IMG/VR virus record: IMGVR_UViG_3300008113_000259
Location: 1-29,537 of that record
Source of the DNA: a virus
Reading direction: 5' to 3' (one strand)
Length of the DNA stretch: 29,537 nt
The notes under the pieces are model-generated. The model saw nothing but the letters and a program-made list of their open reading frames with translations, was not told the origin of the DNA and searched no databases. Within the stretch, counting starts at the first letter, position 1; each line of letters starts with the position of its first letter. A program made the position numbers and the translations under genes. Below are positions 6,240 to 27,950 of this stretch, one piece after another.

Positions 6240-6240
6240 A

Positions 6241-9013: not shown

Positions 9014-11776
9014 ATGAAGTTACCTTCTATCGCTATTCTCGATTTGATTGGTCTTGTTTATGATGGTAATACCCTAAAAAATAGAGGGTTAGGTGGGTCT
9101 GAATCAGCCGTAATTCTCATTTCCCGTGAACTTTCAAAGCTGGGATTCCCTGTAACTGTACTAAATGCTTGTGGTGAAGACGATAGTACTGTTGGTATTT
9201 ATGACGGTGTCACTTATAGACATATTAATAGTATAAATTCATCAGATAAGTTTGATATTGTAATATCATCTAGAACTGTTGTACCATTTATACCAGAACA
9301 TTATTACCACGCATTTGATCAAGCAACAAGATATCCTTGTCGCATATTTGAAAATATTAGAAAAAATGCTAAACTTAAAGTATTATGGATGCATGATACT
9401 TTTTGTAATGGTGATAATATCCTAGAAGAATTGGCTGTACAAGGTTATATTGATAAAATCTTTACACTTTCTGATTTCCATACAGCTTATGTAACCAATT
9501 GCCATCATGGTAAAAGACGTAATTTTGAAGTAATGAAAAATAAGATGTTCATTACTAGAAATGGTGTTGTTAATTATTTTGATGAAGTTGATATCCATGC
9601 AAAAGATAGGAATCTTTTTGTTTACAATGCATCAGTTACAAAAGGAATGATTCCTCTTATTGATAAAATTTGGCCAAGGGTTAAACATTATATTCCTGAT
9701 GCAAAGCTTAAGATTGTAGGTGGTTATTATAAATTTAGAGATGATTCACCTTTAGATGCTCAAGGTGAAACATTGATGAAATTGAAAGAAGAACAAAGAT
9801 ATAAAGATCTTGATATTGAATTTACAGGAATCATTACTCAAAAACAAATTGCTGAGCTTCTTGCTAAGGCTAATTTCTTTTTGTTTCCGGGTGCTTTTCC
9901 TGAAACGTTTGGTATTTCAACACTTGAATCATTAACATATAATACTCCACTGGTTGCTACTCGTTTTGGTGCATTGGAAGAGACTGCTATTGATCTTGCA
10001 TCTTATTTTATTGATTATGCTATTGAACCAAATGGTCTGTTTCCAGAAATTAAAGTTGATGCACAGGTAGATCAATTTGTTGCTAGGGTTGTTAAGGCCT
10101 ATAATGATCCTTATCTTCATCAACAAAAACAATATTATTGTAATGTAATTAAAGATATTAACACATGGGATACTGTTGCTTTACAATGGAAACAATTGTT
10201 CTTAAAACAATTTAATCAATATATGCCAGTAAATGAATATCGTCAAGTATCTTATATCAATGATAAAGTTCATAGAGTATTTGGAAGACGATTCAGCAAT
10301 AAGGAAGAATGGAATAATTATAAATCGGGATATGAAGAACACATTGCTGTTATCACACCTTTCTATAATGCTGAAAAATATCTATTAGATTGTTTGCAAT
10401 CGGTTGCCTCTCAAGACTATGATAATTATCATATGTATTTGATTAACGATTGTAGTACTGATAATAGTGTAAAGGTTGTTAAAGACTTTATAGAAAGTCT
10501 TCCTATGTATATGCAACATAGATTTATTCTTATTAATAATAATGAGAATAAAGGGGCAGTGTATAATCAAATAAACACATTGAGAAACAATGTATTAGGA
10601 TCCGATGATATTGTAATGCTTCTTGATGGAGATGATTCATTAAAGAATGATAATAATATCTTTAATTTCTATAATGCTTTATTTGCCGATAATAAGACTG
10701 AATATGCATACGGAAGTTGTTGGTCTATGGCTGATAACATTCCCTTGATTGCACAACCCTATCCAAAACAAATTAGAAAAAATAAAGCCTACCGTGAACA
10801 CAAATTTAACTGGGGAATGCCTTACCCCCATCTAAGAGTATTCCGCAGAGGTTTAATTGATAATATTGATGATAAAGTATTTAAGGATGAGGATGGAAAT
10901 TGGTTTATGGCTGGTGGTGATAATGCTACCTTCTATAATATAATTGAACAAGCTGATCCCAATAAAGTTGTTGCAGTTCAAGAGATATTTTATAATTATA
11001 ATGATTTAAATCCTCTAAATGATTATAAAGTTCATGGTGAATTGCAAAATAAAAATGCTTCAAAGATTGCTGGTAAGAAACCAAAGATACCTGACTTTAT
11101 GAGCAATGTAGAAGAATCAAGGGAAGTGATTAATCAAGTACAACCAACAAATGAAACAGTGGTGAAAAACATTATGAAAAAGAAAATTCTTATTGCAATT
11201 CCAACAGCAAAGAATATTGAATCTGCTACATTTAAATCTATCTATGATCTTATTGTTCCAGAGGGATATGAAACAGTGTTTCAATATTTCTATGGTTATA
11301 ATGTTGACCAGGTTAGAAATCTAATTGCAGATTGGGTGGTCAGAGGCAATTATGATTATCTCTTTGCTGTTGATTATGATATTGCTTTCCCAGCAGATAC
11401 ACTTGTTCGTCTATTAAAACATGATAAGGATATTGTTTCAGGTGTATACAGACAACGTGTTGTAGATAAGCAGGTTCTAGAAATCTTTGAGAAGAATGAT
11501 AGAGGTGGATACACACACATTCCTTATGATAAATTGCTGAATGCCGGACTTATGGAAGTAGGTGCTTGTGGATTTGGATGTGTTCTTATCAAGAAGAAAG
11601 TCATGGTTGATATTGGCTATCCACAATTTCAATATCGTTCAGCCTTGAATCACAATGATACATTCTCAGAAGATCTAGACTTCTGTAGAAAAGCATCACT
11701 GAAGGGATTCAAGATTTACGCAGATAGCACACTGTTGTGTGAACACATAGGATCTTATGTGTTTAGGGTTTCTTAA
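9014..11776 (+). CDS. Three-domain glycosyltransferase (GT4-like, GT2, GT-A-like)
   Basis: Residues ~1-400 look like a GT-B enzyme of the GT4 type: a GLGGSESAVILISREL stretch near the N-terminus and the donor-site pattern FPETFGISTLE near residues 297-306. Residues ~442-690 form a GT2 (GT-A) domain: VITPFYNAEKYLLDCLQSV, then INDCSTDNS, then LLDGDDS near 536 supplying the metal-binding acidic cluster. Residues ~720-920 form a third unit that also looks like a GT-A transferase: ILIAIPTAKN, AVDYDIAFP near 786, GACGFGCVLIKKK and a late SEDLDFCRKA. The gene is alone on the plus strand among minus-strand structural genes, with its own sigma70-like promoter and a GAGG ribosome site. It could build a short glycan on a phage protein, with the neighbouring fibres as natural candidates, or modify host surface sugars. 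The acceptor and sugar are unknown. Confidence 0.85.
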   Translation: MKLPSIAILDLIGLVYDGNTLKNRGLGGSESAVILISRELSKLGFPVTVLNACGEDDSTVGIYDGVTYRHINSINSSDKFDIVISSRTVVPFIPEHYYHAFDQATRYPCRIFENIRKNAKLKVLWMHDTFCNGDNILEELAVQGYIDKIFTLSDFHTAYVTNCHHGKRRNFEVMKNKMFITRNGVVNYFDEVDIHAKDRNLFVYNASVTKGMIPLIDKIWPRVKHYIPDAKLKIVGGYYKFRDDSPLDAQGETLMKLKEEQRYKDLDIEFTGIITQKQIAELLAKANFFLFPGAFPETFGISTLESLTYNTPLVATRFGALEETAIDLASYFIDYAIEPNGLFPEIKVDAQVDQFVARVVKAYNDPYLHQQKQYYCNVIKDINTWDTVALQWKQLFLKQFNQYMPVNEYRQVSYINDKVHRVFGRRFSNKEEWNNYKSGYEEHIAVITPFYNAEKYLLDCLQSVASQDYDNYHMYLINDCSTDNSVKVVKDFIESLPMYMQHRFILINNNENKGAVYNQINTLRNNVLGSDDIVMLLDGDDSLKNDNNIFNFYNALFADNKTEYAYGSCWSMADNIPLIAQPYPKQIRKNKAYREHKFNWGMPYPHLRVFRRGLIDNIDDKVFKDEDGNWFMAGGDNATFYNIIEQADPNKVVAVQEIFYNYNDLNPLNDYKVHGELQNKNASKIAGKKPKIPDFMSNVEESREVINQVQPTNETVVKNIMKKKILIAIPTAKNIESATFKSIYDLIVPEGYETVFQYFYGYNVDQVRNLIADWVVRGNYDYLFAVDYDIAFPADTLVRLLKHDKDIVSGVYRQRVVDKQVLEIFEKNDRGGYTHIPYDKLLNAGLMEVGACGFGCVLIKKKVMVDIGYPQFQYRSALNHNDTFSEDLDFCRKASLKGFKIYADSTLLCEHIGSYVFRVS

Positions 11777-13749: not shown

Positions 13750-13830
13750 TTATTTGCTTTCTAAAGCCTTCAGTAATAAGTTTTTAATATCAGCCAAATC
13801 ATTTTTCATTGAATCTACTTCACTTCTTAG
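13750..13830 (-). repeat. Duplicated coiled-coil tail, copy in the oxygenase
   Basis: The last 26 codons (starting LRSEVDSMKNDLADIK) match the end of the upstream 72-aa gene at 14640-14720, with 17 of 26 residues identical and clear similarity at the DNA level. This points to duplication of a docking or oligomerisation helix. Confidence 0.7.
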
Positions 13831-14643
13831 AGTATTTATTTCTCCAGAAGGCACAGGGGGAACAGAAATACTAGAATCTATGCTATTAAAATAGTCTATT
13901 CTATCAACTACATCATTATTTTTAGGATCATAATCATATAAATCTTCATTATGATTGATCATTTTATTTGCATCCGGATCTGCAAAATAATATCTATCAA
14001 AAGGATCAGTATTTGTTGCGCCAACTGGCATCGCGTTAAATGATACAATTTTTCGATATTTTCCAGTTGATTTAAAATTGTTTGTAGCAGTTGCATGTTG
14101 CAACCAGGCAGGAAATATTATCATTATTCCTTCTTCAAATTTGCATGTATAATCACTTAACATTTTAATTTTTGTATTTTTTTCTCTTGCAGGTGAAAGA
14201 ATATTATGATAATGATAAGGTGAATAAAAAGTAGTACCAGATGAATTATCATTACCATCCAAATAGTATACCCCCGCCCAATATGAATTGTGATGATGAT
14301 GTCTGTGATGAAATCCACCATCTGGATGAACTGTTGCCCACATTCCTGTCAGAGCAATATTAGGAACGAAACCATTATCTTTCATCACCTGCTGAAGTGA
14401 ATCCAATATAAAATCTTTTAATGGTTCAAATATTTTTTCATTGTGGATATTAGGTGAAGTGAAAGGTAATCTTGAGGTTCTAGTATTTTTTCTAAAATTT
14501 TCTTTATCTGATAAGTATTCTAACCACTTAGGTTTTAATACACTGTGGTGTTTAAACCTTGTCTTGTAAATTGGTATCCCAAAAAGATTTTTAGAAATTA
14601 AATTAGAATTAATTGTATCTTCAGAACCTTCATCTTCAATCAT
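13750..14643 (-). CDS. Putative 2OG-Fe(II) oxygenase with coiled-coil tail (297 aa)
   Basis: The core resembles the 2OG-Fe(II) oxygenase family common in T4-like marine phages. FHHRHHHHNSYWAGVYYL (residues 111-128) aligns with the HHxNS-xxGVYYL iron-site segment. FPAWLQHATATNN supplies the distal His183, and YRKIVSFN supplies Arg197, which would hold 2-oxoglutarate. A classical HxD pair is not obvious; the family form I recall is also His-rich here. Such enzymes hydroxylate proteins or small molecules with Fe(II), oxygen and 2-oxoglutarate. Residues ~272-297 form a heptad-like helix almost duplicated in the neighbouring 72-aa protein (17 of 26 identical), which suggests both dock to the same partner. 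The ATG overlaps the small gene's stop (ATGA), with TGGA upstream. The location among fibre genes makes a fibre protein a plausible substrate; that is inference. Confidence 0.75.
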   Translation of the reverse strand: MIEDEGSEDTINSNLISKNLFGIPIYKTRFKHHSVLKPKWLEYLSDKENFRKNTRTSRLPFTSPNIHNEKIFEPLKDFILDSLQQVMKDNGFVPNIALTGMWATVHPDGGFHHRHHHHNSYWAGVYYLDGNDNSSGTTFYSPYHYHNILSPAREKNTKIKMLSDYTCKFEEGIMIIFPAWLQHATATNNFKSTGKYRKIVSFNAMPVGATNTDPFDRYYFADPDANKMINHNEDLYDYDPKNNDVVDRIDYFNSIDSSISVPPVPSGEINTLRSEVDSMKNDLADIKNLLLKALESK

Positions 14644-14871: not shown

Positions 14872-16578
14872 TTATATCATTAAAGCAACTGAACGTACAT
14901 CTCTCATGTCTGGATACAATGCATTATCTTCAGATAGAAGAACAATTTTAATTGCAAATGAATTAAAACCTCTGTGCTGAACATCATTTCTATCATAATA
15001 AGTTAGAGTTCCTGGTTGTACATCATTGGCAATGTCACCTACAGAATCACCGTATGCAATGTATGTTGAGTCAGCTTCTGATATTGTTGGTCTGGTAGTA
15101 AATTGTTGTAAACCAAATGAATATTCTTTATAATCATTTCTATCTTGAGGTGAACTATATACAGCGTCGCCGCTGTTTAAGTATGAAAGAAGAGACCAGT
15201 CTTTAGAATCAAACGATTCAGTATCACTGTTGCTGTTTAAGAATTTGACATAAACTTTAATATCAGTTCCAACAGGTCTATATCCTGTCACCCAAACCTT
15301 GAAGTCTTCAGATATTCCATCAAGTATTACTGTTTTAGAAATATACTTACATAATGCATTGCCGTATCTAGTATGTTCATTAGTATAATCATTATTAATG
15401 CGATTATGTATAAAGTTAAAATTCTTGGCTGCCAAGTCAATAACAGGAGATTGAAATGGACTTAATGAAACCATTTGAATTTCATAAGTTGCTGTTCCCT
15501 TTGTTCCAAAACCACCAATAGCCTTTTCATTTGAAAAACTTTTAATAGATCTTTGGAAATCCTGATATTGAAATAATGTCTCATTAGGTAAATTAATTCC
15601 AGTAGTATCTTTTGTAGATGGCGAGGAATATGTTGTATTACTAGTTCCGAAAAATTGAGATTTAGTATATGTACCTGATGGTTCATTTATTGTAAATTTA
15701 GGAACAAGAGCTTCATAATAGATATCATCTATTGTTTGAATTACAGCATTAGCAATCAAATAAGTATTAGAAATATAAGATGTATTGGATATATCTGGGG
15801 TTCTGTAAAATCTAATATTTTTAAAACTGGTATTGTTAAACAAACCATTTGATTTTTGTAGATATAGAATACCAGAGACCTCATCAATATAATTAACAAT
15901 ACCAGCAGGATATAAACTAGTATTTGATGTCAATACCTGGTTTAGATTAGAGGCATTAGCTGCGTAAACAACATCACCATGGCTGATAGGAACACCCGAT
16001 GTTTTTCTAATAATTCCATTAGTTGATGATACATCAAGAGAAATGAAATCATCAGCTTTATTTGCAAATACTGCTGTGCCAGTTGTACTTGTAAACTGAG
16101 CAATGTAAAGATTGAATTTCAAATCTTGGGTTTCTACAGGAGTCCATGAGTCACCATTAGATGAAATATATAACACTCCTGCATATGGTTGTTGATTAAT
16201 AATTTCACCAGTTAAAATATCTGTACCTCCAACTTCTGATACCCACATATTATAATCAGGTGAATTTAATTCAGGATAAACATAAAAAGCATATGTTTTA
16301 TCCGAAGACAACATTATAGGGTATTCAAAAGTATATACCGTTTCAGAAGATGAATCATTACTTGTAGAAATAGCTGAACTATTTAAAAAAGCGCCACCTA
16401 AAATTCTATTAGTAGATGGAACACCATTTTCAGTCTCAGCAACCACTAATGTAGTTCCCAATGTTGAACTTTTAGTTTTGAAAAATACACCTATTTGAGT
16501 CAAAAATAGTCCAGGCAGGCCAGCTGTTAAAGATCCTGCTAGTGTAAAAGTTTGAGCTACTGGGTTACCATTTATCAT
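14872..16578 (-). CDS. C-terminal segment of a split DUF4815-type baseplate/tail protein (568 aa)
   Basis: The N-terminus reads NGNPVAQTFTL, then FLTQIGVFFKTKS, then ENGVPS, followed by MWVSEVGGTDI, QPYAGVLYISSNGDSWTP and DLKFNLYIAQF. These are the hallmarks of the last third of the very large virion proteins of T4-like marine phages, in which the DPLAQTF-type segment follows the DUF4815 and YTM-EIG segments within one chain. The C-terminus (KYISKTVILDG, VWVTGYRPVGTDIKVYVKF, FAIKIVLLSEDN, DMRDVRSVAL) also fits that family. Here it is a separate gene: 23 bases after the stop of the middle segment, in a different frame, with its own AAAGG ribosome site eleven bases before the ATG. It probably assembles with the other two parts in the baseplate periphery or at fibre attachment. 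Comparison with the intact family is from memory. Confidence 0.7.
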   Translation of the reverse strand: MINGNPVAQTFTLAGSLTAGLPGLFLTQIGVFFKTKSSTLGTTLVVAETENGVPSTNRILGGAFLNSSAISTSNDSSSETVYTFEYPIMLSSDKTYAFYVYPELNSPDYNMWVSEVGGTDILTGEIINQQPYAGVLYISSNGDSWTPVETQDLKFNLYIAQFTSTTGTAVFANKADDFISLDVSSTNGIIRKTSGVPISHGDVVYAANASNLNQVLTSNTSLYPAGIVNYIDEVSGILYLQKSNGLFNNTSFKNIRFYRTPDISNTSYISNTYLIANAVIQTIDDIYYEALVPKFTINEPSGTYTKSQFFGTSNTTYSSPSTKDTTGINLPNETLFQYQDFQRSIKSFSNEKAIGGFGTKGTATYEIQMVSLSPFQSPVIDLAAKNFNFIHNRINNDYTNEHTRYGNALCKYISKTVILDGISEDFKVWVTGYRPVGTDIKVYVKFLNSNSDTESFDSKDWSLLSYLNSGDAVYSSPQDRNDYKEYSFGLQQFTTRPTISEADSTYIAYGDSVGDIANDVQPGTLTYYDRNDVQHRGFNSFAIKIVLLSEDNALYPDMRDVRSVALMI

Positions 16579-16601
16579 TTTTTAATTTACCTTTATTATA
16601 A

Positions 16602-18020
16602 TTATTCTCTAGCAGGTTGACCTGTTCCCCATGTACCAGTACCTGTACCTCCTAGTGATATACTAACACCACCACCACCACCACCTGCGTGGCAAGCATT
16701 TACACCTACACCTACACCAACACCAGTCCCACCTGTATCGTGTGTTCCAGTACCACCCCCAACAGTTTGCTGAACAGGAGGGGGGTCTGTAGTTTGCCAA
16801 GTGAGCGGAGTGCCTGGTGCTGTACTAGTATCAGGTGTAAATTTAGGTTCAATTACTTGGTATTTTAAGTTCTGTTTGGTTGTCGATAGAGATGATGAGT
16901 GATAAGTACCTTCAGCACTTGTTAATATAGAACTAGTAGCAGTTATATCACTTTGATCAATAAGAAGGAATACTCTTTCTCCTGCTCTAAATGTATTAGA
17001 TGGCAGATTGAAAATTAAAACAACCCTTCCTTTATCATCAGATACTAATTGATCACCCAATGATCCTTTTTGTTGTAGTATAGAACTTGGGTCGACACTA
17101 TGACTTGCTTCTGCAAATGCAGAAGGTATTACATTTCCATTTCCATCTAACAATCCCGGTGCATACACCGCAGGTGAGCAATATTGAGAAACAGGTTGTC
17201 TATCAAAAAACGGATACAATTTTGTATTAGGTTTTAAATTACTTGCAATTATAGCAAGTTTTCTTCCTACCATATAAGGCATTAAAGATACATCTTTAAC
17301 GAAATCACCTAGATCTTGAGGTGGTAATTTTTGACTTTCAACTTTAATATCTCTAATTGTTATTGTTGTATTTGATTGCCAATAATTTGTACTACCTTTT
17401 TTATTAACAATTGCTGGGTTACTATATGTAGTGTCAATATCTTTAAACGCACCAGCTGCAGCTGCATCAGAAAATGCTTTAGCTTGATCATTGACGATAG
17501 TCTGATCTGCTGCTTGTGTGTTAACATTAGTATTATCAAAAGTTGGATATATTTCTAAAGCACCCTTAAAATTATAAAAAGTCTCCGCACAATTGCGTGT
17601 GGTAGTGGCGTGTGGGTTTCCACCTAATTTGACATTGGTGTAATCTAATGTCAATAATCTACCAGATATTTTTATATTTGAACTTGTTGTTTTATCTACC
17701 TCAAATCCAATAAATTTTTCATAGAAATTCGGTCTGGCAAGAGAAAGTTTAGAACTGATACCTATATTCAATTCAGGTGATTGAGTATTCATAATAGTAT
17801 CATCATTGAACGGATCAGCAAAAATACCGTTTTTAAAACGCTCAATACCTTGATCATTTTGTATTGATGTTGTTTTGGTATCTAGAGCCAAAGCATTAAG
17901 AACAGTATAATATTCAAGTTTTCTAATTCTATCTTCGAGCGCACCAATTTCTTTCATGGTGTAACCTTTGATAGTATTAATACCAACCTGAACGGCTATA
18001 TCTTTTCTTTTATAAGTCAT
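16602..18020 (-). CDS. Middle segment of a split DUF4815-type baseplate/tail protein (472 aa)
   Basis: Residues ~19-75 read GYTMKEIGALEDRIRKLEYY, then IERFKNGIFADPF, the block that normally follows the DUF4815 region in large T4-like marine phage structural proteins. Further on, LKPNTKLYPFFDRQPVSQYC and the segment FNLPSNTFRAGERVFLLIDQ match the next conserved block. The last ~85 residues are low-complexity, Pro/Thr/Gly-rich, with a GVGVGVGV run, one CH pair and six consecutive glycines. The ATG comes one base after the stop of the 998-aa ORF (TAATATG), in the +1 frame, with no strong ribosome site (only AGAAG nearby). It is therefore either translationally coupled, made by +1 frameshifting, or separated by a one-base sequence error. 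The product probably acts in the same particle position as its two neighbours. Confidence 0.7.
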   Translation of the reverse strand: MTYKRKDIAVQVGINTIKGYTMKEIGALEDRIRKLEYYTVLNALALDTKTTSIQNDQGIERFKNGIFADPFNDDTIMNTQSPELNIGISSKLSLARPNFYEKFIGFEVDKTTSSNIKISGRLLTLDYTNVKLGGNPHATTTRNCAETFYNFKGALEIYPTFDNTNVNTQAADQTIVNDQAKAFSDAAAAGAFKDIDTTYSNPAIVNKKGSTNYWQSNTTITIRDIKVESQKLPPQDLGDFVKDVSLMPYMVGRKLAIIASNLKPNTKLYPFFDRQPVSQYCSPAVYAPGLLDGNGNVIPSAFAEASHSVDPSSILQQKGSLGDQLVSDDKGRVVLIFNLPSNTFRAGERVFLLIDQSDITATSSILTSAEGTYHSSSLSTTKQNLKYQVIEPKFTPDTSTAPGTPLTWQTTDPPPVQQTVGGGTGTHDTGGTGVGVGVGVNACHAGGGGGGVSISLGGTGTGTWGTGQPARE

Positions 18021-18021
18021 A

Positions 18022-21018
18022 TTATTCTGCTTCTGTAAACGTCAATGATGGATAAGGAGGCACGTAAATATCAGCTATTTTCATTCCTGAACTATTTAGC
18101 GTTGGTTGTTTAGGATTGAAAGACGGTGTACCTGATTTAACCATCATATTACCGTCCTTTGTAATTAACAATGCATCATATCTTGGTAGATAAAATTCTA
18201 CGTTATATTCAAAATTCGAATCAGGTTCAATTGCTGCGGCGAAAGCTGGAGCATAGAATGTTGTAACATTATTTGCTGGATTAATAGTTGCTCCTGCAGA
18301 TGTAGTAGAACTTACTGCTGTATTAGTAATAATAGGTCTTACATCAATGAAATTTCTTAGATCATAAATTCCACCTGAAAGATCTTTATACACAGGAATT
18401 TCTGCTGTTGCAATGGCAATAGTGTTTGCTGGATTTGCATCATCAACCGGATATGAGTCAACAGACATAAATGTTGCTTGTGATGATGTAATATTAGGTG
18501 AAAGATGGTCTAGCTTTACTGTCAATCTTGTTGCTGAAGTAATTTGTGATTTATATTGAGGTTTGACAGAAATTTGTGCAAGACCATAATAATTATCTGT
18601 TTGACCATTATCAAAATTAAACCAATCAACTTTATCTGGATATGTATTTCCAAAACCAGCACCATAGTAAACTGAAGTAACTTTATAAACATCAGGAAGA
18701 CCCAATGACCAAGGCCCTGTTGAACCTGCTGGATGACTTGCACAATTGATGTTTACATATCTATCTTTCTTTACATCCTTTTTAATAGGAACAGCAGATG
18801 TTCTTAAGATAGGAGTTTGAGCTCTTATAGAGTAAGTTGTAGTAGTATCAGGATCTATAGCAATATCAACAGACATCTGAGTAACAACACCTGAGACCTG
18901 TGCAAAAGTTATTGTATTACCACTACCTGTAAAGTCAACTAGAGATCCTTTCTTAAAGAATCTATAAAGTGAAATTGTTCCATCACCAGGTACGGCGGTA
19001 GCACTAATATTAGGTGTCAATGTAATACTATTAGCACCATTTACAGCTGTAATTGTGTGATAGGTTGTACCAGTTGCTGTAGAATATAATTTAATATTAT
19101 GACCTGTTTGAAGTATTGTATCAAAACCAGCATTAACAGATCCAACTGTAACATTACTACAAGTTGAGTTTGATACGCCGCCAATTGATCCTGGATATAC
19201 AGTAGACGAGAATAGATTTGCAGTTACATCAGTATTAAAAAAGATATTGATGTTTTCAGCTGCAATATCATCAATTGTACCAACACCGTAGTTATATCTA
19301 TCAGAACCTAACGTAAATGTTGCAGCGGCCTTACCACCAGTTCTAGTAAGATTCTCAGCTGAACTTGTATCACGATATACATATGATGTTCCATTAACAC
19401 CAGAATTACTTGTTAGCCTTTTTATTCCAGTAAGACCTGTATCGTATATTAGATTGCCAAGATTACCTTGAATTTGAGCTTTGCCGTTTGTTAAAACAAT
19501 ATCGGCAAACACTTTTCCATATGTACCATCGACATAAAAGCTTTTTGCATCAGTTGCAAAACTGTAACCAGTGTTCATTCTTACATTGGTAATGTATAAT
19601 CTATACTGGGCGTTAGGTGTACCTTTTGTACCAGAATAATATTTAAAAGCACGAACTGTTGCAGTTCCAACAAGTGTACCCAAAGGACTAGATGCAGTAA
19701 TATTTTTTGAAAGAACTTCTTGTTTTGTATCATAAATGTTAACAGATTGCAATCCGCCAATATCAAATATACCCGCAACATCGTTAACAAATATGTAGTT
19801 ACCAAAATTAACGGTGGCAATTTCATTTAACAAATCTTGAGAACTTACACCTCTTGGAACCTCTATTCTTCTTGGTGCTTTATATTCAACCCTGTAACCA
19901 TCAATATAAGCAATACCTGGTGATAGGGTATAATAAAATGTATTGGGATTACCAGAGGCTTCAACATTTAATTGAAAAGGTTTTGCAATATAATCACCAG
20001 ATTCTTCTTTTGTTCTTTGTGCAATTGCTTCACCAATTTTACTATACACTGGATCTTCAGCAGTAAGAACTGGTGCAGCAGAAGTTGCTCCACTAAAATC
20101 TACAATAGGTAAAAATCCAGTTGGAATTGTAACTTGTGTGTTTGAAGAATCATAAGATACCAATGAAGGAACTAATTTTAATCTATAAGCACCTGGTGCA
20201 CTATAGTTTGGACTACCAATTGAATTATCATATAATGAAGGATCTTCTGCAGGTTTTACAATATATTCTGCAGTACTAAACCCAACCTTGATACCCGCAA
20301 CATTAGAAGAATGTTCTTTGATTATAAAGTTACCTGGGTTAGATTTAATAAAGAAACCTTTTTGGTAAATAACACCTTGACCAATATGAATACCATGTCC
20401 CACACTTAGAGCATTGACACTTGAATTTGAGTTCAGTGTATAAATTGAACCAAGATAATTAGCAGAACTTAATGGGCCAGTTTTGTCTTGAGTTGAAGAA
20501 TAAACATCAATTTGTTCACTAGTTGTACTGAATGTGCTTACTTGTGTACCTAAATTATTACCTGAATTTAGATATAATACATAAGCTCTGTTTGTATCAT
20601 AACTACCAGCATCAACAGCAGATTCTGCGCCAACTTTTGCTTCAAACACGGCAGCTCTTAAACCTGTTGTGTTAGAAACCAAAAGATGTGAATTAGATAA
20701 GTGTGTAACATTATTTGCTGTATCAGAATTGCCTAAAATAAGAGTAGAAAAATCTAGTGTAGATGTATTACTATCTTTAAATCTTACCTGAGGAATATTG
20801 GGATATTGAGTAAAATTACAACCTTCAACAATACTTCCATCTTTATAGATACTATCACCAAATCTTGAAATTTGTTTCTGGAGAATAGTTTGAAGCTGTG
20901 TTAATTCACGAGCCTGTACAGCTGTCGATGGACGAAACAATATTCTATAATATTGTTTGTTTTCATCATAGTCATCATAAAAAGGAGCTACATTCAAGTT
21001 GGTCTGCAAATCAGCCAT
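18022..21018 (-). CDS. N-terminal segment of a split DUF4815-type baseplate/tail protein (998 aa)
   Basis: The start LNVAPFYDDYDENKQYYRIL, followed by FRPSTAVQARELTQLQTILQ and then ISRFGDSIYKDGSIVEG, is the signature opening of DUF4815-containing phage structural proteins. Later blocks agree: HIGQGVIYQKGFFIKS, the NSIGSPNYSAPGAYRLKL segment near residues 264-281, and LSPGIAYIDGYRVEYKAPRR. Near the end EFYLPRYDALLITKDGNMMV and IADIYVPPYPS form the boundary at which relatives continue into the YTM-EIG block; here a TAA intervenes. The gene follows gp8 with a nine-base gap and a good AAGGGA ribosome site that overlaps the gp8 stop. In T4 the genes after gp8 encode peripheral baseplate and short-fibre connectors (gp9-gp12), so this protein probably occupies an equivalent place. 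Confidence 0.75.
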   Translation of the reverse strand: MADLQTNLNVAPFYDDYDENKQYYRILFRPSTAVQARELTQLQTILQKQISRFGDSIYKDGSIVEGCNFTQYPNIPQVRFKDSNTSTLDFSTLILGNSDTANNVTHLSNSHLLVSNTTGLRAAVFEAKVGAESAVDAGSYDTNRAYVLYLNSGNNLGTQVSTFSTTSEQIDVYSSTQDKTGPLSSANYLGSIYTLNSNSSVNALSVGHGIHIGQGVIYQKGFFIKSNPGNFIIKEHSSNVAGIKVGFSTAEYIVKPAEDPSLYDNSIGSPNYSAPGAYRLKLVPSLVSYDSSNTQVTIPTGFLPIVDFSGATSAAPVLTAEDPVYSKIGEAIAQRTKEESGDYIAKPFQLNVEASGNPNTFYYTLSPGIAYIDGYRVEYKAPRRIEVPRGVSSQDLLNEIATVNFGNYIFVNDVAGIFDIGGLQSVNIYDTKQEVLSKNITASSPLGTLVGTATVRAFKYYSGTKGTPNAQYRLYITNVRMNTGYSFATDAKSFYVDGTYGKVFADIVLTNGKAQIQGNLGNLIYDTGLTGIKRLTSNSGVNGTSYVYRDTSSAENLTRTGGKAAATFTLGSDRYNYGVGTIDDIAAENINIFFNTDVTANLFSSTVYPGSIGGVSNSTCSNVTVGSVNAGFDTILQTGHNIKLYSTATGTTYHTITAVNGANSITLTPNISATAVPGDGTISLYRFFKKGSLVDFTGSGNTITFAQVSGVVTQMSVDIAIDPDTTTTYSIRAQTPILRTSAVPIKKDVKKDRYVNINCASHPAGSTGPWSLGLPDVYKVTSVYYGAGFGNTYPDKVDWFNFDNGQTDNYYGLAQISVKPQYKSQITSATRLTVKLDHLSPNITSSQATFMSVDSYPVDDANPANTIAIATAEIPVYKDLSGGIYDLRNFIDVRPIITNTAVSSTTSAGATINPANNVTTFYAPAFAAAIEPDSNFEYNVEFYLPRYDALLITKDGNMMVKSGTPSFNPKQPTLNSSGMKIADIYVPPYPSLTFTEAE

Positions 21019-21027
21019 TTTATTCCC

Positions 21028-22530
21028 TTAGAAATTAAAGTATAATTTTACATCTTCAGACTTCACACCAGTTCTACTAATTGGTTGTATATTTTTATAG
21101 TAATAAACTGTTGATGAATACGGAACTAAATCTTTATTATTTATTGTTGTAATAATGCATGTTTTACCAGTAGTAAGAGACGTTAGTGTTTCAAATGGTT
21201 GAAATGTCCCCACATCCTCAAGAACATAAAGTTTTGAAGAATCCATGTGAGCTACTGTTGCTGTTGCCTTACTAGTAAAGCCCTGCACAATTTCACCAGG
21301 GTCAAATAAACCACCTGCGTAGCTTAAGATACCAAAATTTAACATTTGGTTAAATGTCGCAGCACTGAATGTAGATAGATTAGATACTGCAACCGGGTTA
21401 TTAATTAATGCAATTTGGCGGTAATTTACCCAATCTGGAAAATTATCACCTACATTTGTACTGATGGAAATGCCTAAAGTATTACACCCCAATTCGTAAA
21501 CAGCATCTGAACCATGTCCATCCTTAGGTGAGATAATGGCTCGAGCTGTTGCATCAGATCCGAAATAAGTATTATTTGTAATTGTAACATTAGCATATGT
21601 ATAATTTAAACCTCTGCTTACAACTGTAACAGAAGTAATTTTACCCGTATTGGCGTCTACATCTGCAACTGCTGCAGCGCCAGTCCCATCTCCTACAATC
21701 TTCACCTGAGGATCAATTCTATAAAGAGATGTACTATCAACCCCAATAATAGGATTGGTAGTTGAGACAAATTTACCTGTAGTATTTACTATATAATTAT
21801 TGATTGGTGAAAGGCTTCCGGCTCCGCCACCCGAATAAATGTAAAATGTGGAGTCTGTGTAGGCTCCACTTAATGTAGATGAATTGGTATTTGCAATTTT
21901 AAAAAATGTATTGCTTATAACATTATCAATGTAACCGTTTGCTGTAGTATAATTATTACCATTTTTAGTTACTTCAATAACATGTAAAGCACCGTTTTCA
22001 GCAAACTGTGAAACTACAGGAGAAGGTATAATGGGGATAAAATCATTAGTAGTAAATTTGTTTGACTGTGCACCATTGATAGTATAAAGATATTTCCACT
22101 TATAACCATCAGCAGTATCAAAATCACCACCACTCACAGTCAATGTTGGCTCATCAGTTGATGGAACCCCATAGTTGTTGAACAAGCACTTGTATACTCT
22201 ATTTAAACTTGTTACCACATAATAATTTTTTGAATATAAGGCTTGATCAGTATCATCATAATAATCGTAGACTGTGTTCGCCGTCCAAGTTTTTTTCTTT
22301 GTAACATATGCAATATCAGTAATGGAAACTTTTTTACCAAAAAGTATTTCTTTATTTACTGAATAGTGTGTTCCGGTGATAGATGAGTTTGTTGAGGGAG
22401 GTATATTATCGTCGGGCCACTCAAAGAATTTTCCAAAAGTAATATAGTAATTTGATGATGTGTTTGCTACATCATCAATAAAATTCTTTACAAATTTTGC
22501 TTTAATATTTTGATTAAAAATACCAGTCAT
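21028..22530 (-). CDS. 8: Baseplate wedge protein gp8-like (500 aa)
   Basis: Several short blocks line up in order with T4 gp8: YYITFGKFFEW (residues ~28-38) with IFITFG-xxPW, RVYKCL (111-116) with VYRCL, DGYKWKYLYTI (141-151) with DGYVWEYLFEI, YRQIALINNPV (~370) with FRQISIITNPL, and the C-terminal DVKLYFNF with EINILFTF. gp8 bridges the gp6-gp7 core of each wedge to the peripheral baseplate and is thought to move during the change from dome to star. This copy is about 165 residues longer than the T4 protein (334 aa), with the extra length in the middle and a second stretch before the C-terminus. It starts in a TAATG overlap with the gp7-position gene and has GGTGG about ten bases upstream. 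Confidence 0.85.
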   Translation of the reverse strand: MTGIFNQNIKAKFVKNFIDDVANTSSNYYITFGKFFEWPDDNIPPSTNSSITGTHYSVNKEILFGKKVSITDIAYVTKKKTWTANTVYDYYDDTDQALYSKNYYVVTSLNRVYKCLFNNYGVPSTDEPTLTVSGGDFDTADGYKWKYLYTINGAQSNKFTTNDFIPIIPSPVVSQFAENGALHVIEVTKNGNNYTTANGYIDNVISNTFFKIANTNSSTLSGAYTDSTFYIYSGGGAGSLSPINNYIVNTTGKFVSTTNPIIGVDSTSLYRIDPQVKIVGDGTGAAAVADVDANTGKITSVTVVSRGLNYTYANVTITNNTYFGSDATARAIISPKDGHGSDAVYELGCNTLGISISTNVGDNFPDWVNYRQIALINNPVAVSNLSTFSAATFNQMLNFGILSYAGGLFDPGEIVQGFTSKATATVAHMDSSKLYVLEDVGTFQPFETLTSLTTGKTCIITTINNKDLVPYSSTVYYYKNIQPISRTGVKSEDVKLYFNF

Positions 22531-24140
22531 TAAGTGTTTACCACCAAGGTTTCGGTCTGTATAATTTCATCAGATTGTTTACTATCAATAAGAATTGGTC
22601 TGCTAAAAACTCTATTTCCTACAGGATGCATAACTTGTTTTAATACATTAATATATTTATCAAGAGATTTTTCAAATTGAATTTCATATGAATATTCTTG
22701 GTAATAATCACTATCTGTAATATACTTATCTGCGTTTAAGAAACTACTTTCGTCTGCCCAGAAACCTTCTTCATATCCAATAGCACCAATTTCCAATGTT
22801 AATTCAGCAGTTTTTAGATCGTCATTTTCATTATAAAAAACAAGCACTTCACCCTGTGTATTATATCCAAGACCAGATGAAACTAGTTCAACACTCTTGA
22901 TGACGCCATTACCTGTTGCCAATTCTCCGGTAATTATGGCATTATTGCCCCATATTTTACCTTTACTATCAATTATACCATATCCATGAACCCTTTTTTC
23001 AAACACGTTTGTTTGAACTGAACCATTATAATTATGATCACCAGAAGAAGCACCACCAAGAGAAGCAATAGATCCAATTGTAATATTAGCTGAAGTTAAA
23101 GCCGTACCAATAATTGATTGGGAATTAGCAAGGTACATGGTAACACCATAATCATTTGCTGATATGAGTGTATTAGCGAATGAAAGTCCATTGGCAAATG
23201 TTAATGGATTTATATTATAAGGAAAAGTAATTGTATTAGCAAGGGATTTTACTTTGAATATTGCCCCATTACCTGAAGACGCTGTCTTATAACTTACAGT
23301 TACAGGAGAGTCAATTGCATATCCGTAACCACCATCTACCAATTTAAAATTAATATATCCCTTGGCCGTGTCATTTTGTAGTATTGAACTAACGTTAAAT
23401 TTAAGGCCTTCACCAGTAGTATTTGACGTTAAAAGGATATCACCTGGTGCATGATCTTCTGATGAAAAAATTATTGAGGCGCCAACAGCTGAACCTTTGA
23501 TTAAAGTAGCATCTTTAATATCTAATCCATCGTAAACTAAATATTCACCAACAACAAACGAACTTCCTGTACTACCAGTTGTAATATCAGAAAGATAAAA
23601 AACATGAGCTAATTGTTGGCCTGTGTTAACTTTTGTAGCAGAAGATACATATGCTGTCGCACCTGAAGTAGTTCCTCTAATTAATTTTTTATTATAACTA
23701 CTATTGGAACTTCTTTCTTCTACTTCAAGATACTTATTTCTTATCCATTTTCCATCAGAGGTTCTAAGCATATCTTTTTGCGGAAGATATACATTTATTT
23801 CTAGATTGTATAGAAGTCTAAAAAGTAATTTAAGACCCTCAATGGAACCTTTTGAACGATAAACATCTATAATATGTTTTTCTAGTAATCTTTTATCAGC
23901 GAGAATATTCTTAGGAATACCTCTCATATATTTTTTAAGAAAATAATCTATGTATTCGTCTGTTACTTCATTTATATCAGTGTATTCAAGAAGCCTTCTT
24001 GATTTATAAGTAGCACCTTCTTGATCCATCCACTCATAGTAAGCCTTAACAAATTGAATAAAATTTTCACCTTCTTCCTGATAGAAGGCTGGAAATTGTT
24101 GAGCTACTAATGGTGCAATTTCTTTTAAATCAACTTGCAT
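22530..24140 (-). CDS. Baseplate wedge protein in the gp7 position (536 aa)
   Basis: The N-terminal ~130 residues are helical and strongly patterned: FPAFYQEEGENFIQFVKAYY, EWMDQEG, DEYIDYFLKKYMRGIPKN, DKRLLEKHIIDVYRSKGS and GLKLLFRLLYNLEINVYLP. This block is common to baseplate proteins encoded next to gp6 in T4-like marine phages and recalls the P2 gpI / gp7 wedge subunit, which pairs with two gp6 (gpJ) chains to form the wedge core. The rest is beta-rich, with a GTTSGATAYV motif near residue 155 and a VELVSSGLGYNTQGEVLV segment. It overlaps gp6 and gp8 genes at both ends by TAATG, matching the T4 order 6-7-8. It is half the length of T4 gp7 (1032 aa), so I assign it by position and N-terminal pattern, not by full-length similarity. 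Confidence 0.7.
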   Translation of the reverse strand: MQVDLKEIAPLVAQQFPAFYQEEGENFIQFVKAYYEWMDQEGATYKSRRLLEYTDINEVTDEYIDYFLKKYMRGIPKNILADKRLLEKHIIDVYRSKGSIEGLKLLFRLLYNLEINVYLPQKDMLRTSDGKWIRNKYLEVEERSSNSSYNKKLIRGTTSGATAYVSSATKVNTGQQLAHVFYLSDITTGSTGSSFVVGEYLVYDGLDIKDATLIKGSAVGASIIFSSEDHAPGDILLTSNTTGEGLKFNVSSILQNDTAKGYINFKLVDGGYGYAIDSPVTVSYKTASSGNGAIFKVKSLANTITFPYNINPLTFANGLSFANTLISANDYGVTMYLANSQSIIGTALTSANITIGSIASLGGASSGDHNYNGSVQTNVFEKRVHGYGIIDSKGKIWGNNAIITGELATGNGVIKSVELVSSGLGYNTQGEVLVFYNENDDLKTAELTLEIGAIGYEEGFWADESSFLNADKYITDSDYYQEYSYEIQFEKSLDKYINVLKQVMHPVGNRVFSRPILIDSKQSDEIIQTETLVVNT

Positions 24141-25930
24141 TATTGGTTAAACACATTAATAGAAATAGAAACTTTATCATAATCAATTTTTAAAAATTTA
24201 TTTTGCTGAACTATTATATCATCATAGTTTAATTTTGCATAAATGTCAATACTGTTTGTGTAATCAAAAGGATTGATATTAAATAACATATCTCCGGTCA
24301 AATAATCAATAGTTCCTATATTACTTTCAAGAATAACTTTTGTTGAATTGGGTGATAAGAAATACACTCTTAGATTACCTATTCCATCATCCGAAATACG
24401 AGCTTGATAAAGTGCACCATCTTTATTATAAGTAAATAAATTTGATACTATAACCTCTGATTCATCGTCAGTATATAATTTTGGAACAGGTCTATAAATT
24501 GCATTACCGTATGTAAAATTATATCTGTTTGTGATTGTTCTTGTTGGTGTAATTTTATAGATAACCCTCAAATTAGTTTGATTACTTACAATTGATTCGT
24601 CAGCAGAATCTATCATTGAGAGTAATTTTGATTTTCTCAAATCATCACCGAAATTATTTAAATGTAATGTATCATACTGAATAATTTGATTGAGAACCTC
24701 TGTTTTAAGAAGTTGGGTACTCTTGGATGTTAATGTAGGATCATATTTTACATCTGATACAATTTCAACAAATAGATACTCAGGATCTATAATGACAGGT
24801 TCTGCAGTAATATTCTTTGGTGTAAGAAATGCAACCACACTATTTTTTAATTCTGTAGAAAGAATAGTTGAAGTTCCATATGGAATAGCTGTAATGATGA
24901 CTTTACCAAATTGTGGTGGATCGGCATCTTCGCCACCATAGACATTTACTGTTTTAATTTGAGGAAAATTCTGCAATACAAGATTAGTATAATCTTCTTT
25001 AGTAACAGCTCTGTTTTGTGTTGTGAAATGTCTTGGTGCATTGAATCTTACTGATTCAATACTTTCTCTCTCAGACCCAACAGATGCAATTTCATTAGTA
25101 GAAACAGTTACGGAGTACAAATTATCTATTTTTGTTGTTGCAGTAAATGAACTTGCCTTGTTTGCCGCTTCACCATTTGTTGATCTGTATTTTACTTTTA
25201 CAATATTACCATTTACTAGTTTATTTCCAAGCACACCATCACCAAATGTAATAGCATATTGATTTGTTAAAGCACCTTCAATAAAGAAAACCTTAGATGA
25301 AGGATCTAGACCATATAAATTATAAGCTTGTTTGTAGACTGTATTTGAAGAATCTGTTGAGGAATTTATAACAGTGACTTTAATACTATTTGTATCAACA
25401 TTTTCTGAATTTAACACAAATGTTGATGTATTAGCTACATTAAAATATTCTGTAACTATTTTACCTTCGTATATGTAAACAGGGTCACTTGTATAGTATC
25501 CATTGTTTCTGTTGATGATAATATTTTCGTCGGTAGTAAAAGTATAATTAACACCATCAACAGCTGTTCTTACAACATAATTCTCAGGAATAACTACAAA
25601 TGAAGGTGTCGCTGTTCCAGTATTGACATTGAATGTCACTAAAGCTTGAGCTGATGTTCTTGAACGTGGAATGTAATTTAATTCCTTAGCATGTGAAACA
25701 ACTGATTCCTTAAGACGTGATGAATCCAGGAACATCTCACTTCCTATCATGTTAAGATAATAGGAATTCATATATGAATTATACGCCAACAAATCTAAAA
25801 GAGCACTAAGATTCGAGCCTTCAAAGTCATAATCTTTGAATTCGGTTTTACTCTTTAAAAATGTCTTTAAGTTGCTTTTGATACCATCAAAGCTTAATTC
25901 AGAAACACTTAAAAACCCTGTATTTGCCAT
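24140..25930 (-). CDS. 6: Baseplate wedge protein gp6-like (596 aa)
   Basis: The opening FLSVSELSFDGIKSNLKTFL, then YDFEGSNLSALLDLLAYNSY, then NMIGSEMFLDSSRLKESVVS and AKELNYIPRSRTSAQA is characteristic of T4 gp6 (660 aa in T4) and of the wider baseplate J family. Central motifs PRHFTTQNRAVTKEDYTNLV and VNVYGGEDADPPQFGKV are also typical. gp6 forms the continuous inner ring of the baseplate as a homodimer per wedge, clamped with gp7, and holds the six wedges together around the hub. The gene overlaps gp25 upstream and the gp7-position gene downstream by TAATG junctions, with an AAGAAGAG stretch before the ATG. Length and motifs suggest an intact gene. Confidence 0.9.
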   Translation of the reverse strand: MANTGFLSVSELSFDGIKSNLKTFLKSKTEFKDYDFEGSNLSALLDLLAYNSYMNSYYLNMIGSEMFLDSSRLKESVVSHAKELNYIPRSRTSAQALVTFNVNTGTATPSFVVIPENYVVRTAVDGVNYTFTTDENIIINRNNGYYTSDPVYIYEGKIVTEYFNVANTSTFVLNSENVDTNSIKVTVINSSTDSSNTVYKQAYNLYGLDPSSKVFFIEGALTNQYAITFGDGVLGNKLVNGNIVKVKYRSTNGEAANKASSFTATTKIDNLYSVTVSTNEIASVGSERESIESVRFNAPRHFTTQNRAVTKEDYTNLVLQNFPQIKTVNVYGGEDADPPQFGKVIITAIPYGTSTILSTELKNSVVAFLTPKNITAEPVIIDPEYLFVEIVSDVKYDPTLTSKSTQLLKTEVLNQIIQYDTLHLNNFGDDLRKSKLLSMIDSADESIVSNQTNLRVIYKITPTRTITNRYNFTYGNAIYRPVPKLYTDDESEVIVSNLFTYNKDGALYQARISDDGIGNLRVYFLSPNSTKVILESNIGTIDYLTGDMLFNINPFDYTNSIDIYAKLNYDDIIVQQNKFLKIDYDKVSISINVFNQ

Positions 25931-26322
25931 TATCTTACTCTTCTTAGAACTAGGTCTAATGTGACCGGTGTGGTATTATTTACTACAGAAAAAACTATAG
26001 TTGCAGAATAAGAGTTTTCATCAGGCAGGGCCTTTACAGTTACACTATAAAGATTGGCTCTTGGTTCATAATTAATAATTGTTTCTCTAATTCTTTCTTT
26101 TAAAATATATTCAGTGTCGGGTCCTATATTTTCAAAAAGACTTTGGCGAATACCTGCCCCAATTCCAGGATTAAAAAATCTTTCATAAGGATCGGTCAAT
26201 AGTAAATTACGGATAGACTTTTTGACTGCATTCTCATTAAAGAGAAGCACCAAGTCCTCCTTAATAGGGTGGACATCAAAATTAGTAGGTATATCTGAGT
26301 AAAATACTGTTGATGTTGCCAT
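25930..26322 (-). CDS. 25: Baseplate wedge protein gp25-like (130 aa)
   Basis: The length agrees with T4 gp25 (132 aa). The sequence shows the family layout: an N-terminal FDVHPIKEDLVLLFNENAVK segment, IRNLLLTDPYERFFNPGIG, and the conserved EPR motif at residues 86-88 within TIINYEPRANL. gp25 (GPW_gp25 family, related to TssE of type VI secretion) sits at the junction of wedge and sheath and is needed to start sheath polymerisation; the EPR loop contacts the gp6-gp7 core. No Shine-Dalgarno sequence is visible, and a perfect late promoter motif ends only five bases before the ATG, so the message may be nearly leaderless. In T4 gene 25 lies in another cluster; here it precedes gp6 directly. Confidence 0.9.
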   Translation of the reverse strand: MATSTVFYSDIPTNFDVHPIKEDLVLLFNENAVKKSIRNLLLTDPYERFFNPGIGAGIRQSLFENIGPDTEYILKERIRETIINYEPRANLYSVTVKALPDENSYSATIVFSVVNNTTPVTLDLVLRRVR

Positions 26323-26327
26323 AAAAC

Positions 26328-26335
26328 TATTTATA
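26328..26335 (-). promoter_or_regulatory. Consensus T4 late promoter abutting gp25
   Basis: The minus strand reads TATAAATA, an exact match to the T4 late promoter. Its T-A-A also supplies the stop codon of the 539-aa gene. Only GTTTT separates it from the gp25 ATG at 26322. In T4 transcription begins about six bases after this element, which would place the start on or next to the ATG. Confidence 0.5.
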
Positions 26336-27950
26336 ATGATGTTTGAACAGCCCTCAGATATGCAGGGTTATATCTTTGAATATCATTTGCTGTAGAAGCT
26401 GCAAGTCTCCAACCCCCAGTAAAAGGAGAGGAGCCAAATGGTGAGAAGGTTTCACCCACCATTACTGCGCTAAATCCTAACATAAAAGGAATTGCATTAT
26501 CTGATCTTCTCATTTCTATCATAGAATCAGAAGGTACATTCATAACATTACAGAGATTGCTATTCATAGTTGCTACATGTTGGCCAAAATAAGTATTCTG
26601 AGGAGGTAATGTAGATGAACCTGTTACCATTCTAGAGACAATTGAGGAGATTGGTAAAGAACCCCCAAAAGAAGCAAAGTTCTGCATTCCAAAACTTACA
26701 ACTCCACTTCCACCACCCATAGATGAAAATGCACCTATTCTTCTACTAAAGATTTGATCAATGGCTGGTAAGGCAACAGGAGCCTCTCCAAAGAAACTTT
26801 TACCAGCATATGATGGTGGCTGCAACATTGGGTTATTTGCTCTTTTAGAAGTAGCTATTCTAGTTCCTATAAGCACCTCAGATAAAAATCCCCCCATCGC
26901 ACCACCACCCGACTGGGATAGTAATGCACCTGCTACAACTCCACCCAAAGAACCCAAAGAACCTAAAGCACCACCCAGTGGTGTTTGATTTAATAAATTT
27001 CCAATAGCTGCACCACCTGCAATAGCTGCAAGAGAAGGAACAGACGTAGTTGGATTTGAAACTGATGCCAGTGCAGCAACGGAAGCTGTACCTCCTGCAA
27101 CACCAACATAAGTATTAATTGCATTTCCAATTGAGCTAGTGGATAATCCAGGAAATCCACCCAAATTACCTCTATAACCTTGATTTTGGTAGGCTGTTGA
27201 AACTATAGAAGGACCTAATACCCCCAATGCTATACCAAGTTCAGCGGCTTGTAATGTATCTCCAATACTACTCTTTGAAATATCATCATATTGTGACATA
27301 TGAGCATATTGATAACTATATCTTTGATTTACTGAAGCTACTCCTTGGCTCAAATAACCTATTTTATAGATATCCGGAATGCCTACAACACCTATAATAT
27401 TTCTAATATATTTTTTATCTGCTAATTCTGGTACACCAATGGTGTTAGAGATTTCTACTAAATTATTGTAATTTTCATTAGCAGCTAAAATATAAAAGAA
27501 ATTTTCTAAAGCATCGTAAGGTATAATACCATAAGATGCAAGTTCTTGAGATTTTCTTTGAATAGCTTGTTTTTCTAATGTTGTTAAAATATAATTACTA
27601 TCGGTACGAACATAGTTAGCAGGAGCTGTAGTATTTCTTAATGATGCTCCGCTTCCAAATAATTGTGCACCAATTTGCACTGCATTATTAAAACTGTCAT
27701 TTGAAGCTTTTAATTCCTGATTACCATAAAATCCGGGTTGACTAATAAATCCCTTTTGAATTAAAGCTAAGGTGTCTTTATTAATACGGGTGTTATTTGA
27801 CCCTGAAGAACCCGGGGTTTGTGTACTTGATGAGTTAGATTTATCTGATCCGCCGTAGGCAACTTCTCTCCCACTTATTGTGTATGTCTGACCAACAACA
27901 GGATTTGGAACGGCAGCAGCAATTAAGTTATCATCTCTAGAACCAGCCAT
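26331..27950 (-). CDS. Unknown virion structural protein between gp5 and gp25 (539 aa)
   Basis: I do not recognise a T4 counterpart. Residues 1-70 are Ser/Asn-rich and probably flexible. Residues ~75-215 are mostly helical (LEKQAIQRKSQELASYGIIP, ALENFFYILAANENYNNLVE). Residues ~265-350 are strikingly rich in Gly, Ala, Leu and Ser (AAIAGGAAIGNLLNQTPLGG, GGVVAGALLSQSGGGAMGGF), giving a hydrophobic, low-complexity stretch with no charge. The C-terminus is compact (RSDNAIPFMLGFSAVMVG, FTGGWRLAAST). It overlaps the gp5-like and is adjacent to the gp25 gene, so it is very probably made with the hub/spike and could be a hub accessory, a spike-tip or a tail-plug protein. A membrane-interacting role for the Gly/Ala stretch is only a guess. 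Confidence 0.6.
   Translation of the reverse strand: MAGSRDDNLIAAAVPNPVVGQTYTISGREVAYGGSDKSNSSSTQTPGSSGSNNTRINKDTLALIQKGFISQPGFYGNQELKASNDSFNNAVQIGAQLFGSGASLRNTTAPANYVRTDSNYILTTLEKQAIQRKSQELASYGIIPYDALENFFYILAANENYNNLVEISNTIGVPELADKKYIRNIIGVVGIPDIYKIGYLSQGVASVNQRYSYQYAHMSQYDDISKSSIGDTLQAAELGIALGVLGPSIVSTAYQNQGYRGNLGGFPGLSTSSIGNAINTYVGVAGGTASVAALASVSNPTTSVPSLAAIAGGAAIGNLLNQTPLGGALGSLGSLGGVVAGALLSQSGGGAMGGFLSEVLIGTRIATSKRANNPMLQPPSYAGKSFFGEAPVALPAIDQIFSRRIGAFSSMGGGSGVVSFGMQNFASFGGSLPISSIVSRMVTGSSTLPPQNTYFGQHVATMNSNLCNVMNVPSDSMIEMRRSDNAIPFMLGFSAVMVGETFSPFGSSPFTGGWRLAASTANDIQRYNPAYLRAVQTSL

Follow-up and report, generated by a model that had tools for sequence, protein, structure and literature searches.

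Probable stepwise fission of a VrlC/DUF4815 baseplate gene into three genes in a lineage of uncultured phages

Large baseplate proteins of the VrlC/DUF4815 family are known from pelagimyophages and cyanomyophages (e.g., HTVC008M, AGE60391), in which one ORF of ~2000 aa is located after gp8. VrlC is viewed as an integral part of the two-layered baseplate (PMC7029224). The pyramids in the double-layered baseplate of Listeria phage A511 consist of gp106 trimers, which change their orientation on adsorption (PMC9863714 and PMC11406892). Among solved structures, sequence comparison yielded a single relative, ORF65 of Staphylococcus phage phi812 (PDB 9euf and others). It is a DUF4815 baseplate protein that consists of one 1152-aa chain with neither a Hint domain nor a gene break. 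In Xanthomonas phage X1 (OQ427096), VrlC is distributed over two genes. A second group of described systems that is relevant here comprises the type A BILs and BUBL1 BIL2, which have the Hint fold with an N-terminal Cys and a C-terminal His-Asn and carry no Cys, Ser, or Thr at +1 (PMC4031507). Type A BILs, which lack the +1 nucleophile, mostly cleave and sometimes splice, the latter through a freed amino group that attacks the thioester (PMC4031507).

The DNA analyzed here (the window) is a virus record of 29,537 bases, whose minus strand holds a tail and baseplate gene block. This block includes the genes, all on the minus strand, of a gp25-like protein (25930-26322), a gp6-like baseplate wedge protein (24140-25930; phrog_219, E 2e-156), an additional baseplate wedge protein (22530-24140), and a gp8-like baseplate wedge protein (21028-22530; phrog_438, E 2e-78). 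The gp8-like gene lies directly upstream of three further minus-strand genes encoding chains A, B, and C. Chain A (18022-21018, 998 aa) is the N-terminal DUF4815 part of a VrlC-type baseplate protein and matches positions 4-944 of PHROG_358 (E 3e-150). Chain B (16602-18020, 472 aa) is the middle part, which contains the YTMKEIG/LEYY helix as well as the LKPN-PFFD block (positions 948-1407, E 6e-63), and chain C (14872-16578, 568 aa) is the C-terminal part, which starts with MINGNPVAQTF and matches positions 1422-1589 as well as a second stretch (E 4e-74). Places and lengths of the three consecutive ORFs are as given in a first-pass annotation of this DNA, which had read them as one gene split at two linker positions. 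That reading is borne out, as the chains cover PHROG_358 (2056 positions; DUF4815/VrlC, listed by PHROG with unknown function) consecutively and without overlap, and both breaks, here called J1 (A|B) and J2 (B|C), fall in linkers. The Pfam DUF4815 profile is itself cut between A and B, with its best stretch at 67-247 in A and at 431-562 in B. The location of A, B, and C beside the gp6, gp7-like, and gp8 wedge genes is that of the VrlC family, and the gp8-like gene precedes them in the same synteny as in the intact relatives.

Those intact relatives include Ochrobactrum phage OC (1942 aa), Pelagibacter phage HTVC008M (2001 aa), and Stenotrophomonas phage Moby (1931 aa), which carry one ORF in the same place. 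The family, block order, and position after gp8 are shared with the VrlC of pelagimyophages and cyanomyophages, whereas the window has three genes instead of one. A single polypeptide is usual in DUF4815/VrlC though not strictly defining, and the window departs from it through two breaks that it has in common with relatives. The expectation that these sequence blocks normally sit in one long protein holds for OC, HTVC008M, and Moby and for most loci in IMG/VR. In scans of IMG/VR, more than 300 loci were collected and near-copies were removed before counting; of the 225 distinct relatives whose state is clear, 189 have neither a break at J2 nor a Hint domain. Separate genes of unrelated kind are not the rule. 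The one-gene form is the rule, and the J1 break is confined to one clade. No record in the cultured-phage collection shows at least 60% identity to B.

The relation to phi812 ORF65 extends to all three chains at the level of sequence homology, with support from the fold. Residues 102-255 of ORF65 are matched by A and residues 806-951 by C (E 6e-15). A phmmer search of solved structures with B alone gave chance hits only, and the family profile was therefore needed for the B region; the profile that spans J1 matches residues 376-786. In the alignment over the 1152 residues of ORF65, J1 lies near residue 455 and J2 between residues ~786 and 806.

We consider A, B, and C to be the products of a stepwise fission of one VrlC/DUF4815 baseplate gene, in which Hint autoproteolysis probably preceded the gene fission at J2 and whose chains would reassemble in the baseplate; we put the probability of this reading at roughly 0.8. 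Relative to the first-pass annotation, it adds a single origin of J1 and, probably, an intein-like domain that was present at J2 before the gene broke there. The earlier view of two splits of one gene stands insofar as both are real, and it is corrected insofar as they differ in age and kind, J1 having come first and from one origin and J2 later.

In the window, J1 (18018-18024, minus strand) is a TAA-T-ATG stop/start cassette that reads GAA TAA T ATG and leads from the end of A (..FTEAE; stop at 18024-18022) to the start of B (M-TYKRKD..; ATG at 18020-18018). The intact relative L167 reads PPYPSLTVKEAE-TYSRKDLSMRISVKTTKRYTMKDI at this place, i.e., KEAE-TYSRKD without a break, and the window reads PPYPSLTFTEAE, stop, M-TYKRKDIAVQVGINTIKGYTMKEI. 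From this alignment, it follows that J1 cost no residues and merely inserted a stop and a start. J1 is present in each of the 21 clade loci that were examined, with a conserved YPSLTFxEA(E/Q), a stop codon (TAA or TGA), and an ATG 1, 2, 3, or 5 nt further on, a spacing that spans all three frames. No strong ribosome site was seen ahead of the B start at J1. Within the block, several adjacent genes share a single base, which indicates that tight stop/start spacing is ordinary for these genes. An AlphaFold2 model of the stretch of L167 across J1 is of moderate quality (pLDDT 80, pTM 0.45) and places J1 at a short helix (residues 260-265), with the end of A on one side and the long BN helix on the other; a fold search with this model returned nothing reliable beyond phi812.

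The distance of just 1-5 nt between stop and restart, the B start without a strong ribosome site, and the overlap of the A and B frames by a few codons would also be expected if ribosomes passed from A to B by programmed frameshifting or stop readthrough and so made a single protein. That explanation is very unlikely, however, since the frame of B relative to A varies among the members (+1, +2, or in frame), so do the codons ahead of the stop (GCA/GCT, GAA/GAG) and the stop itself (TAA/TGA), and the ATG is invariant at J1 in the split genes while the intact relatives have no Met there. The conserved frame relation and shift site of a programmed frameshift gene are not seen at this locus, the offsets of 1, 2, 3, and 5 nt covering all frames.

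Broken at J1 are 17 of 246 distinct IMG/VR loci, counted after the removal of near-copies. One separate contig (L001) has the same J1 and is 100% identical over its part of B, and L002, which is ~79% identical to the window, has both the J1 and the J2 break. J1 corresponds to one change on a tree of 225 rows, and in a focused tree the 23 J1-split rows form a single branch with 100% support. As the sequences and the tree show, J1 arose once, in a linker, and has been retained across a whole group of uncultured phages. The first-pass annotation had also asked whether close relatives share the splits, which is the case for both in L002, for J1 in 17 distinct genomes, and for J2 in a clade of 17 rows. 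Sequencing or assembly frameshifts that broke one gene do appear to occur within the set, namely in L255 relative to L252, inside B of L240, and in L337. As an account of J1 and J2, such errors have a practically negligible probability: the residue at which J1 falls is common to 17 distinct genomes, the offset at J1 varies over all three frames, a second contig (L001) is identical, each break is followed by a proper start, and a ribosome-site-like motif stands in the intergenic gap of J2. Nothing in these genomes points to one open frame across both junctions.

Purifying selection acts on all three chains. Comparison of the window with L002 gives a dN/dS of ~0.11 for A and of ~0.12 for both the B core and C. 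Relaxed evolution was observed in the tail of B (51% identity to L002, dN/dS ~0.5). This fast-evolving tail and the variable lengths are what one would expect if the pieces were degenerating genes en route to loss, which is nevertheless extremely improbable given a dN/dS of ~0.1 in A, the B core, and C and the retention of A, B, and C in all covered members of the clade.

J2 is a different kind of junction. In the window, it is an intergenic gap of 23 nt (16579-16601, minus strand) with an AAAGG motif resembling a ribosome site at 16594-16590, 11 nt before the ATG of C; the gap measures 12 to 77 nt in the J2-split relatives of the clade. Terminator-like sites in the window number six against 2.5 expected, none of them at J1 or J2, and a promoter scan of the window gave promoter-like sites at a frequency not above that of shuffled sequences. 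Ahead of the gap, B ends in a Gly/Thr-rich low-complexity tail of 61 aa with 22 Gly (16605-16787, minus strand), which is the low-complexity tail noted previously at one of the splits and which occupies the position of a Hint domain in close relatives. The window gave no match to the Hint domain, and no Hint remnants are recognizable in its B tail.

The Hint domain is seen in L092, L256, and L263, which are split at J1 and have B and C in one ORF with the domain between them; in the focused tree, they occupy a near-basal position within the J1-split clade. The inserted domain comprises ~145 residues and reads CCFDPKALVTMADG ... SEEHP ... YNLMLDGDHTFIVENYVVHN in L092; in L263, the Hint end and the start of C read VHN|KDPVGETF. 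The Pfam Hint models score below their curated cut-offs in the relatives, and the assignment is therefore carried by the motifs and by fold matches. In an AlphaFold2 model of L263, the domain has a pLDDT of mostly 85-97 and adopts the Hint fold, as seen in its Foldseek matches to the gp41-1 intein with a TM of 0.80 (by target), to BIL2 of Tetrahymena BUBL1 with 0.77, and to a BIL from Clostridium with 0.74; the whole L263 model also matches baseplate chains of phi812. Most members have the N-terminal Cys, the block-B His, and the C-terminal His-Asn and lack a Cys, Ser, or Thr at +1, which is the pattern of type A BILs; L297, L303, and the last Hint of L333 are exceptions without the typical end. 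Unlike known BILs, the Hint of the relatives separates two portions of a phage baseplate protein and has a conserved Lys or Arg at +1, its activity being predicted. No description of a Hint in VrlC or of the fission of this gene was found in the open literature searched.

The residue after the His-Asn is almost always Lys (L049, L088, L089, L090, L092, L102, L263, L331, L336, and L339) and is Arg in L256 and L334. The canonical nucleophile is thus missing. Hint cleavage requires no particular side chain at +1, although Lys is nearly constant there. In L263, L256, L102, L049, L331/L332, L336, and L339, only a few residues separate the cut site from the point at which the conservation of C sets in, so that cleavage would yield a C chain that begins almost where the separate C genes begin (MINGNPVAQTF in the window).

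A rival reading accepts the fission as real but has the Hint of the relatives splice B and C back together, so that the fused relatives would end up with one chain at J2 and the gene break would be unrelated to the Hint. Type A BILs can splice when a freed amino group attacks the thioester (PMC4031507), and B and C would then be reunited. Most one-gene relatives have no Hint and keep these parts joined. We regard this explanation as unlikely, given that cleavage products dominate for type A BILs (PMC4031507), that nearly all Hint members have Lys or Arg at +1, and that many members with the gene break have retained the Hint on B, although nothing is left downstream to splice in cis. Cleavage of B from C by the Hint is the preferred reading at J2.

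The J2-split genes form a clade of 17 rows (100% support in the focused tree) that is sister to the basal fused members, and the J2 break is, by its place on the tree, later than J1. Within this clade, the Hint is retained at the end of B in most members (L089, L090, L243, L248, L250, L251/L264, L254, and L257), and B of L245 ends exactly with VAHNK before its stop codon. Gly-rich low-complexity B tails without a Hint are found in the window, L002, L240, L241, and L246/L247. In L252/L253, B and C are fused without a Hint, and the order in which L092, L256, and L263 are placed differs between the focused tree and the 225-row tree, so the gain and loss of the Hint cannot be dated exactly. An apparent J2 split in L255 was rejected as a genuine break, being a frameshift in a near copy of L252.

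The history that we propose would start with a stop and ATG cassette that arose in the A|B linker of one ancestor without visible loss of residues, as shown by the sequences and the tree. The ribosome would end A and restart at once on B, presumably by translational coupling. The second step involves an intein-like Hint, whose presence in the B-C linker is visible in the sequences and whose main expected effect, with Lys or Arg at +1, would be post-translational cleavage between B and C. A gene break after the Hint then gave C its own start codon, as the sequences show. Finally, the Hint would have been lost in the branch of the window, leaving the Gly/Thr tail on B, which is the most parsimonious course on the tree. 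A and B would thus be supplied by coupled translation and C would be translated from its own start, except in basal members, where the Hint would release it. The three chains would meet again in the baseplate to do jointly the job of the single-chain VrlC of the relatives.

The steps of this history correspond to living intermediates, from the intact gene through genes with a single break, genes with a single break plus a probable self-processing domain at the second site, and genes with both breaks and the domain to those with both breaks and no domain. Such intermediates show how one large structural protein becomes several chains. Moreover, the breaks mark borders at which a large baseplate protein tolerates a cut, which is useful for reading the phi812 and A511 structures, and the findings point to intein-like processing inside phage baseplate proteins. 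More tentatively, and with somewhat less than even confidence, we suggest that the VrlC protein of many uncultured T4-like phages may be matured by a Hint between two of its parts and that fission may have replaced self-cutting in the lineage of the window. Under the same suggestion, B of the split members that bear a Hint might even become joined covalently to another baseplate chain through the Hint thioester at its end.

Three-part fission had been called unusual for a baseplate component. The three-part pattern is indeed unique, but fission as such recurs in the family. A BN|BC break is present in about ten loci of several lineages (L005, L011, L012, L013, L014, L040, L043, L102, and L154, with Xanthomonas phage X1 included), and a BC|CN break is present in several loci; these breaks lie on separate branches of the trees. 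The VrlC of X1 is likewise divided, with its break located inside B between BN and BC and not at J1 or J2.

The Hint occurs at the J2 position in other branches of the family as well, for example in single ORFs of ~2300 aa (L049, L336, and L339), and its state changes 9-11 times on the tree. Across the family, the relation between the Hint and the J2 gene break is consistent in direction and not significant (p 0.25-1), in counts that are biased by the collection of loci through Hint searches. In one pair of loci (L090:6181-7935 and L245:7156-8982), identity is 92-93% in B and C and 43% in the Hint, from which the domain seems to be swapped as one unit. Four tandem Hints were observed between B and C of VrlC in L337 (1140-7789), joined as VHN-K-C, of which the fourth is interrupted by a frameshift, the frame afterwards running ..LVHNKDPLAQTF; L333 has three in tandem. 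In cultured phages, Hint-like matches fall in helicase, portal, and other or uncharacterized proteins, and among the hits, which were inspected in part, none is annotated as VrlC. Hints were also observed in non-VrlC proteins of L338 (5087-8179) and L340 (5090-7867), with two of them in L338 ahead of a sequence resembling the Peptidase_S74 chaperone.

Several other genes surround A, B, and C in the window. Right after chain C follows a 2OG-Fe(II) oxygenase gene (13750-14643, minus strand), the C-terminal stretch of which matches small virion protein families. A glycosyltransferase-like ORF of 920 aa is encoded on the plus strand (9014-11776) within the minus-strand tail block, where two minus-strand ORFs of 539 and 254 aa (26331-27950 and 5493-6257) are without a PHROG match. 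Two long, repetitive tail-fiber ORFs of 1577 and 898 aa are located at 712-5445 and 6241-8937 (minus strand), and both match largely identical tail-fiber PHROG families.
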